A DNA stretch of 36,407 nt from Flavobacteriaceae bacterium (GTDB taxonomy: Bacteria > Bacteroidota > Bacteroidia > Flavobacteriales > Flavobacteriaceae). The notes beneath the pieces are model-generated. The model made no database searches and was not told the DNA's origin. It saw nothing but the letters and a program-made list of their open reading frames with translations. The position numbers and the translations under genes are program-made. Location: contig JAHEMY010000014.1 of assembly GCA_024643425.1 (NCBI GenBank), forward strand, positions 1-36,407, written 5' to 3'. This document shows, in pieces, positions 34,859 through 35,137 of this stretch. Positions within the stretch are counted from its first letter, which is position 1. Each line of letters begins with the position of its first letter.

Positions 34859-34881
34859 ACTCCTCAATAATATTGAGGAGT
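34859..34881. terminator. Bidirectional terminator hairpin
   Basis: ACTCCTCAATA / TATTGAGGAGT forms a near-perfect 11-bp stem with a 1-base centre, so probably a 10-bp stem and small loop. A run of seven Ts follows on the minus strand and a shorter one on the plus strand. It ends the lipoprotein gene in one direction and follows the tRNA remnant at 34888-34905 in the other. Confidence 0.75.
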
Positions 34882-34887
34882 TTGCTA

Positions 34888-34905
34888 GTAGCGGGAACTG
34901 GATTC
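34888..34905 (-). pseudogene. Remnant of a tRNA-fMet 3' end
   Basis: Eighteen bases match the 3' end of the intact tRNA at 35064-35081 with one mismatch (GTAGCGGGAACTGGATTC on the plus strand). As in the intact copy, a hairpin with a run of seven Ts follows directly on the minus strand. The bases beyond (34906-34960) have only scattered similarity to the tRNA (for example ACCTTCG) and no cloverleaf. This suggests a decayed tandem copy, or a duplicated site left by integration at the tRNA 3' end. Confidence 0.5.
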
Positions 34906-34964
34906 ATTTTCCACCACCTTCGTGGCGAAAAATGGGCCTAGGGATTGCTTCACAAAGAAAACCA

Positions 34965-34981
34965 AACCGTTTATAACGGTT
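34965..34981. repeat. Short palindrome
   Basis: AACCGT-TTATA-ACGGTT, a 6-bp stem. On the minus strand it is followed by TTGGTTTTCTTTG, so it could be a weak terminator. It is one of four hairpins in this gap. Confidence 0.5.
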
Positions 34982-34991
34982 CTAGTTCTCC

Positions 34992-35029
34992 ATACCTCTG
35001 AAGCTCAAGTTCACTTGGCTTCAGGGTAT
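34992..35029. repeat. Long palindrome downstream of tRNA-fMet
   Basis: A 16-bp stem with two single-base bulges: ATACC/GGTAT, CTGAAGC/GCTTCAG and CAAG/CTTG, around the loop TTCA. It has no T run on either side that is its own, so it is not a standard terminator. On the minus strand it lies directly after the terminator at 35033-35059. Confidence 0.7.
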
Positions 35030-35032
35030 AAA

Positions 35033-35059
35033 AAAACCAGTTACAATGTAACTGGTTTT
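35033..35059 (-). terminator. Terminator of tRNA-fMet
   Basis: AAAACCAGTTAC / GTAACTGGTTTT forms a 12-bp stem with a 3-base loop. On the minus strand it begins 5 bases after the tRNA 3' end and runs into seven Ts, a classic intrinsic terminator. Confidence 0.85.
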
Positions 35060-35064
35060 CTTTG

Positions 35065-35137
35065 TAGCGGGAACTGGACTCGAACCAGTGACCTTCGGGT
35101 TATGAGCCCGACGAGCTACCTACTGCTCTATCCCGCG
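35065..35137 (-). tRNA. Initiator tRNA-fMet (anticodon CAT)
   Basis: 73 bases fold as a complete cloverleaf on the minus strand. The anticodon loop is CTCATAA. The anticodon stem has the three G-C pairs (GGG/CCC) typical of initiators, and positions 1 and 72 are C and T, unpaired, another initiator feature. The D stem is GAGC/GCTC, the T stem is ACTGG/CCAGT with loop TTCGAGT, and the acceptor stem is GCGGGA paired with TCCCGC. The middle of the gene is nearly identical to E. coli tRNA-fMet. CCA is not encoded. It has its own promoter and terminator. Confidence 0.95.

Follow-up and report, generated by a model that had tools for sequence, protein, structure and literature searches.

An initiator tRNA gene and a second copy of its 3' end

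The window, by which we mean the whole 36,407-nt stretch of Flavobacteriaceae DNA analysed here, contains an intact tRNA-Met(CAT) gene on the minus strand at 35064-35137, which scores 66.2 bits with the Rfam tRNA model. Its first base pair is mismatched (C1 against T72) and three G-C pairs adjoin the loop in its anticodon stem; both features are marks of an initiator tRNA, and the gene is therefore tRNA-fMet. On the same strand, at a spacing of 176, an 18-nt copy of the tRNA 3' end (GAATCCAGTTCCCGCTAC, 34888-34905) is identical at 17 of its 18 positions, as the original prediction had noticed; a search with GARTCCAGTTCCCGCTAC at up to three mismatches gave 2 matches where shuffled sequence is expected to give 0.04, and none of 100 shuffles reached 2. 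The prediction had also placed a strong hairpin and seven Ts behind each of the two ends. Both are present, the hairpin of T1 starting 1 nt past the tRNA end and that of T2 4 nt past the copy. The features of the locus are as follows.

35064-35137, minus: intact tRNA-fMet (CAT), the putative insertion target (ARAGORN; Rfam RF00005)
34888-35063, minus: candidate element of 176 nt, beginning directly behind the tRNA and closing with the tRNA 3'-end copy (models R2 and R3; layout in relatives)
35053-35065, minus: P1 5' strand, reaching 2 nt into the 3' end of the tRNA gene and overlapping the T1 5' arm (13-nt perfect inverted repeat with 34952-34964)
35030-35063, minus: T1, intrinsic-terminator hairpin and T run, apparently supplied by the element and serving the tRNA (inverted repeat I1)
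34993-35028, minus: P2 hairpin (fold; apical stem covaries in relatives)
34965-34981, minus: P3 hairpin (fold; the lowest-energy fold lengthens it with neighbouring bases)
34952-34964, minus: P1 3' strand, TGGTTTTCTTTGT (perfect complement of the trailer arm)
34935-34951, minus: linker, AGC..TCC..GGCC (alignments A2 and A3)
34905-34934, minus: P4 hairpin ahead of AATCC (fold)
34888-34902, minus: 15-nt tRNA 3'-end copy, TCCAGTTCCCGCTAC, right end of the element; three more bases make the 18-mer at 34888-34905 (repeat search)
34853-34883, minus: T2, presumably the former terminator of the tRNA, displaced by insertion (relative G012)
34837-34852, minus: remnant of the start of a GIY-YIG-type gene, ATGGAAGAATATGTGG (matches the first part of the ORF that follows tRNA-fMet in G012)

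The assignments of T2 and of the gene remnant rest on a relative, G012, in which the element is lacking and a T2-like terminator followed by a gene start lies directly behind tRNA-fMet, like those found past the copy in the window. The ORF in G012 yields a PF01541 match, and in the window the corresponding frame ends after six codons. An ORF that we read as GIY-YIG starts right behind the tRNA-fMet terminator at three loci (L009, L012 and L044), with a PF01541 match for that of G012 (L012) only, and at L044 30 nt of the tRNA 3' end are repeated after the ORF. ARAGORN and the Rfam tRNA covariance model, with which an intact second tRNA was sought in the window, return the intact gene only. Elsewhere in the window Rfam recognises three SAM riboswitches, at 3259-3364, 7435-7546 (minus) and 20584-20643 (plus); two are S-box riboswitches (RF00162) and the third is a SAM-II (RF01726).

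Architecture and folding of the interval

Read along the tRNA strand, the interval consists of the trailer with T1, P2, P3, the 3' arm of P1, the linker, P4, and then AATCC running into the tRNA-end copy. Folded as RNA it reaches -75.1 kcal/mol against a shuffle mean of -38.6 (z -8.95); this strong fold and the 13-nt inverted repeat of P1 were absent from the original prediction. Because the trailer arm of P1 overlaps T1, P1 and the full T1 hairpin are mutually exclusive. Both P1 (by eye) and the apical stem of P2 covary among relatives, and P4 looks like a T-arm whose loop has been replaced by a hairpin. The coding capacity of the 176 bp between the copies is limited to short, overlapping frames of 60-80 aa, and an integrase gene is absent.

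Three covariance models were used: R1 describes the 3' part of the element, R2 its full length, and R3 is a general model built from 25 sequences, which ends at AATCC and holds no tRNA sequence. Over 34900-35063 the window element scores 89.9 bits with R2 and 98.0 bits with R3, the latter score not being independent, as the window element is one of the 25 sequences. Since R3 holds no tRNA sequence, the position of its matches behind tRNAs is independent of model building; their scores are not. R3 was applied within Bacteroidota and to the E. coli tyrV region.

We compared G-T with A-C counts in stems identified under symmetric scoring, 14 antisense rows being excluded here as in the counts of similar pairs and copy lengths below. 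The ratios are 123:9 for T1, 185:109 for P2, 40:25 for P3 and 10:63 for P4. In a separate set of model-fitted alignments P4 aligned poorly. T1 shows the pattern typical of tRNA-strand RNA, as expected of a terminator, and the other helices do not discriminate between DNA and RNA. The P4 stem GGATCA..TAATCC often keeps a C-A mismatch that would be a G-T pair on the opposite strand; this one conserved position is probably the cause of the opposite lean of P4, and may point to a fold formed by that opposite strand.

The same layout behind tRNA-fMet in relatives

A copy of the tRNA end stands 173-181 nt behind tRNA-fMet at 5 of 30 loci drawn from 60 genomes, the window's own genome included. A search pattern that demands such a copy matched in 23 of 299 genomes of the same family, of which we judge 19 to be real and 4 to be chance. 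The first copy lies 171-181 nt behind the tRNA in 12 of the loci found with this pattern, exceptions being L031 (spacing 316, two units) and L044 (spacing 534, with the ORF between), and in loci of named genomes the spacing is as low as 161. Further units follow in tandem at some fMet loci (L031, L046). The copy mostly tracks the host's own tRNA variant (CCAGCTCC in G025, CCTGCTCC in G113, CCAGCCCC in G085), and at L002 and L149 it is one base off its own tRNA. Carriers among the matches listed in a scan of genome contigs, which gave at least 119 stretches, including many chance hits from other phyla, are found in records labelled Lutimonas, Lacinutrix, Eudoraea, Aquimarina, Cerina, Maribacter, Aequorivita, Croceivirga, Winogradskyella, Psychroserpens, Euzebyella, Algicola and Arenibacter. 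In these relatives the copy is conserved as part of another element, a finding that the original prediction had itself named as counting against it.

Three loci deserve separate mention. In Arenibacter sp. 6A1 (L176), 8 kb of sequence include two oppositely oriented tRNA-fMet genes with an element behind each; these elements are 98.8% identical over aligned columns and form the only same-genome fMet pair in the clustering set. A typical fMet element lies on contig OMJU01000080.1 (L159), which is labelled Candidatus Rokubacteria and is probably a misbinned Flavobacteriaceae contig. In G053 (L029), five intact tRNA-fMet genes are arranged in tandem about 110 nt apart, and R1 has no match in the locus.

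Association with tRNA and tmRNA genes in general

The layout extends to other tRNA genes. R1 matched behind tRNA-Asp in G008, where the right end begins like the 3' end of tRNA-Asp, and two R1 matches elsewhere (L061, L062) were judged to be chance. R2 found matches elsewhere in the window's own genome and in other genomes, most of the 20 stretches lying directly behind tRNAs of many kinds and one behind tmRNA. With R3 the own genome gives 16 matches at E<=0.01, 13 of them at 45 bits or more. Ten of these 13 copies stand behind intact tRNAs (Pro-TGG, Ser-TGA, fMet, elongator Met, Val-TAC, Arg-TCT, Ala-GGC, Arg-ACG, Arg-TCG and Pro-GGG), one stands behind tmRNA, and two are at contig edges, where one shows a tRNA-Pro end; the three matches below 45 bits are an antisense shadow, a plain terminator (C84, 37 bits) and a match of 30.5 bits behind a tRNA on contig 146.

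Across six genomes, picked because R3 matches were present in them, 47 sense matches score 41 bits or more, and a hand count placed 38 of these immediately behind an intact tRNA or tmRNA. The other nine comprise two tandem units, four units behind apparent displaced tRNA ends, two at contig edges with a tRNA end visible, and one at a contig edge that could not be judged. At E<=1e-5 with strict filters, R3 matches occur in 44 of 149 genomes of the class, own genome included; 28 of 30 loci from this search lie directly behind a tRNA, and the remaining two (L252, L262) are second tandem units behind one. A phylum sample gave matches in 15 of 148 genomes, two of them outside the class, and 14 of 17 further loci from that sample are behind an intact tRNA and 3 behind a displaced tRNA 3' end. 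Among the unique R3 matches at the loci collected, an intact gene lies upstream in 162 of 209, representing 25 gene kinds including tmRNA. The 47 without an intact gene directly upstream are, as far as they were inspected, mostly second units, contig edges and displaced tRNA ends, and two (L058, L391) have neither an intact gene nor a recognisable tRNA end upstream. Six matches of 28-37 bits away from tRNA 3' ends (L224, L228, L231-L234) look like ordinary terminators and were not counted.

At L203 (contig C72 of G000), a tRNA-Val locus, 96 bp of the element behind the gene recur as a tandem repeat, the units ending in AATCCCTC. At L226, L227, L270 and L275, elements follow displaced tRNA 3' ends resembling the junctions of islands, and much the same 14-15 nt seem to be duplicated by islands as by the small elements.

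Rfam has no family for the element; RtT in particular matched neither the window at the gathering score nor, at E<=5, any of 18 loci, of which 17 are non-fMet. Phage and plasmid collections gave no match to the window element at E<=0.01, and one strict pattern found nothing in viral contigs. The titles and abstract openings listed by open-access full-text searches contained no description of such a family.

Right ends match the tRNA in front of them

The right end of an element resembles the 3' end of its own host tRNA far more than that of other tRNAs. Beyond CC, the number of letters identical to the own tRNA averages 5.65 over 79 elements, compared with 0.37 for other tRNAs (2000 draws, maximum 0.82); this set includes fMet loci found via the pattern that demands a copy, and the observed mean is lowered by L243 and L260, in which the tRNA 3' stem was misread. 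Among 119 non-fMet elements the own-tRNA mean is 2.39, where tRNAs specific for other amino acids give 0.37 (2000 draws, maximum 0.58). Copies of at least 13 nt are present in 12 of these 119 unique elements, behind Asp, Val, Arg, Ser, Gln, Cys, Pro and Tyr tRNAs, and in 19 of 27 unique fMet elements, many of which were found by the copy-demanding pattern. In 37 of the 119, nothing is common with the own tRNA beyond CC. We read the right ends as having originally been full copies that later decayed.

Similar elements behind different tRNA genes

Within single genomes, closely related elements occur behind different tRNA genes. In G340 the elements behind Arg-ACG and Arg-TCG are 95.4% identical over 131 nt from the tRNA boundary on, and the tRNA bodies and downstream flanks differ. 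Similar pairs occur behind Val-TAC and Val-GAC in G183 (92.6% over 122), Arg-ACG and Arg-TCG in G589 (91.2% over 147), Arg-TCT and Arg-TCG in G592 (88.5% over 139), and Ser-GGA and Ser-TGA in G535 (88.1% over 168). In G591 the Arg-ACG and Arg-TCG elements are 82.0% identical over 167 nt, with the beginning of each right end resembling its own tRNA; in other similar isoacceptor pairs, one or both right ends are decayed. Counting within and between genomes, 53 similar pairs link different gene kinds, and 47 of them join isoacceptors of one amino acid, where isoacceptor pairs make up 697 of the 12151 pairs overall (pairs that are not independent of one another), and the remaining six are 75-81% similar. 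Spread therefore seems to need a common tRNA end. Between distant genomes, whole-element similarity has means of 0.49-0.53 in every class and is hardly tied to tRNA kind or genome, so the old history is unreadable.

Presence also varies among congeners. The genus to which G025 belongs was examined in 22 genomes, and the fMet flank could be located in 14, of which 4 carry the element, 8 do not and 2 are unreadable. A one-unit difference can be followed between G596, which has the tRNA and a unit B, and G589, which has the tRNA, a unit A of 176 nt, a tRNA-end copy and a B-like unit. The sequence upstream of the tRNA together with the tRNA itself is identical at 206 of 257 positions between these two genomes, and the B-like unit matches unit B over its first hundred or so bases and has diverged over the rest (145 of 206 identical overall). 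Unit A is identical at 174 of 176 positions between G589 and G025. The difference is what the gain of one unit would produce, and precise loss by recombination between short repeats would give the same picture and fits equally, the direction not being polarised by a tree. In arrays of two units, the one adjoining the tRNA has the higher R2 score in 17 of 19 cases read by hand, the exceptions being L125 and L173; same-genome records were counted once, L031 and L171 were excluded, and R2 was built from tRNA-proximal units, with several distal scores marginal.

Origin of the elements

Taken together, the elements look like a little-known family of tiny tRNA-gene inserts. As compared across genomes, the copies begin no more than about 10 nt past the 3' end of the gene, terminator first, and end in a hairpin, AATCC and a full, partial or decayed copy of the host tRNA 3' terminus; they form tandem arrays, and closely similar cores stand behind different isoacceptors within one genome. 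The interval in the window is thus probably one copy of a family of non-coding structured elements of about 150-180 bp that insert at tRNA and tmRNA 3' ends in Bacteroidota. We postulate that insertion duplicates some 14-17 nt of the target, comprising the 3' strand of the T-stem, the 3' strand of the acceptor, the discriminator and CCA where it is encoded. With its 3' end duplicated on insertion the tRNA would stay intact; the element starts with a terminator, so that the host gene keeps one. New units would enter beside the tRNA and push older ones outward, and the displaced tRNA-end copies would decay afterwards.

No gene was seen in the elements, so the enzyme that moves them would have to act in trans, and our guess is that it is most likely a site-specific recombinase like those of the islands that occupy the same tRNA ends. 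Among the elements examined we saw no mobilising gene, excised form or transposition. A GIY-YIG homing gene was considered as mobiliser, given the remnant behind T2 and the ORF between tRNA-fMet and the element at L044, and was not supported: G025, G049 and G050 carry elements, yet their PF01541 matches fall only in frames of 457-622 aa, whereas G154, with six matches in frames of 89-120 aa, lacks any R3 match at E<=1e-5.

A different view, which we regard as rather unlikely, is that the interval is a structured trailer owned by the host and inherited with the tRNA, whose hairpins act at the RNA level on tRNA termination, 3' processing or read-through, the tRNA-end copies having arisen by ancient tandem duplication and gene conversion between isoacceptors. 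The helices do keep pairing, the excess of G-T over A-C in T1 and P2 implicates the transcribed tRNA strand, pairing of P1 with the trailer is in competition with T1 through the overlap of their arms, and gene conversion could yield the predominance of isoacceptors among the similar pairs; an RNA-level role has reportedly been proposed for the E. coli RttR RNA. However, congeners without the element outnumber those with it where the fMet flank is readable, 105 of the 149 class genomes have no match under strict filters at E<=1e-5, the core lies behind T1 and would be transcribed mainly on read-through, and the tRNA-end copies would be superfluous for such a trailer.

Within the reading as an inserted element, it is tempting to speculate that the copied tRNA 3' end, far from being duplicated passively, serves as an address. 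Perhaps the tRNA, or the 3' end of its gene, guides or primes insertion, possibly via an RNA intermediate, with hops occurring almost only between isoacceptors that share that end. We consider this a long shot; if true, the reading of such an address would amount to a new kind of site-specific mobility that uses tRNA identity and serves an element without genes.

The original prediction offered two explanations of the repeat, one of them an attachment-site pair flanking a tiny element that had been excised or degraded. The repeat pair and the tiny element between its copies have stood, and excision or degradation has not, since the layout is kept in relatives and the interval is one of many copies. 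In its larger form, with the interval as the remainder of a tRNA-integrated island that was lost or has shrunk, this explanation appears improbable. Transfer RNA 3' ends are classic island targets, and at L226, L227 and L275 the elements do stand behind displaced, junction-like ends with about the same 14-15 nt, but normal excision restores the site, and a similar size and internal layout across many genera and tRNAs would be unexpected of independent remnants. The other explanation, the scar of a lost tandem initiator tRNA, we find scarcely credible: some relatives do have true tandem fMet genes (the five copies of L029, which are whole tRNAs, and several other tandem matches) and a weak likeness to a variable loop (CGAAGGT) can be seen by eye upstream of the copy, but a tRNA 5' half and anticodon arm are absent, the hairpins of the interval are not tRNA arms and are kept in relatives, and the same layout stands behind Pro, Ser, Arg, Val and other tRNAs and tmRNA with right ends that fit their own tRNA.

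If our reading as a family of inserts is right, about a third of the tRNA genes of the window's own genome (10 of 33 tRNA matches), and its tmRNA gene, carry a small insert, as do genes in other Bacteroidota, which would bear on the interpretation of tRNA operons, tmRNA flanks and island junctions in this phylum. The elements would then represent a compact tRNA-targeted insertion unit, and would pose the question which enzyme moves it and whether that enzyme reads the tRNA end.

Comparison with known systems

Islands at tRNA genes are inserted by tyrosine recombinases and leave a duplicated 3' end and an intact tRNA. They have in common with the element the targeted tRNA 3' end, its duplication and the intact gene; they differ in measuring kilobases and carrying an integrase gene, whereas the element has about 176 bp and no gene.

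MITEs, REP/BIME sequences and PATEs are short, non-coding, palindromic and multicopy and rely on an enzyme in trans, and the element is like them in being short, non-coding, palindromic and present in many copies, and in its presumed need for an enzyme in trans. Unlike MITEs it has no terminal inverted repeats, the second arm of P1 lying 64 nt inside the right end (34888) in the window. With regard to a target-site duplication, the right end copies the host tRNA 3' terminus over a variable length, as the proportions of copies of at least 13 nt given above for fMet and other elements illustrate. The element differs from MITEs, REPs and PATEs alike in sitting behind tRNA and tmRNA 3' ends, with the duplicated stretch following the tRNA. 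From a tRNA gene or pseudogene it is set apart by the absence from the interval of a cloverleaf with an anticodon arm (ARAGORN, Rfam tRNA model).

The nearest known analogue is the repeat of the E. coli tyrT/tyrV region, the RttR RNA (Rfam RF00391, RtT), a unit of 178 bp. RttR is said to have a role in the stringent response, and to our knowledge the repeat is known from one tRNA locus. In the tyrV region, as in the Bacteroidota element, a unit lies right behind the tRNA, is repeated in tandem and ends in TAATCC and a copy of the tRNA 3' end, and GGGGAAGGAT and ATCCTTCCCC are able to pair around that copy. The hairpin set and the sequence of RtT are different, and a starting terminator with a T run was not seen by eye in E. 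coli. With filters off, the best score of the tyrV region against R3 is 4.4 bits (E 0.67), which is at chance level and gives no sign of homology, so that the likeness is one of layout and does not imply relatedness. If our reading of the Bacteroidota elements is right, the E. coli tRNA-Tyr repeat would nonetheless be one case of a wider phenomenon.
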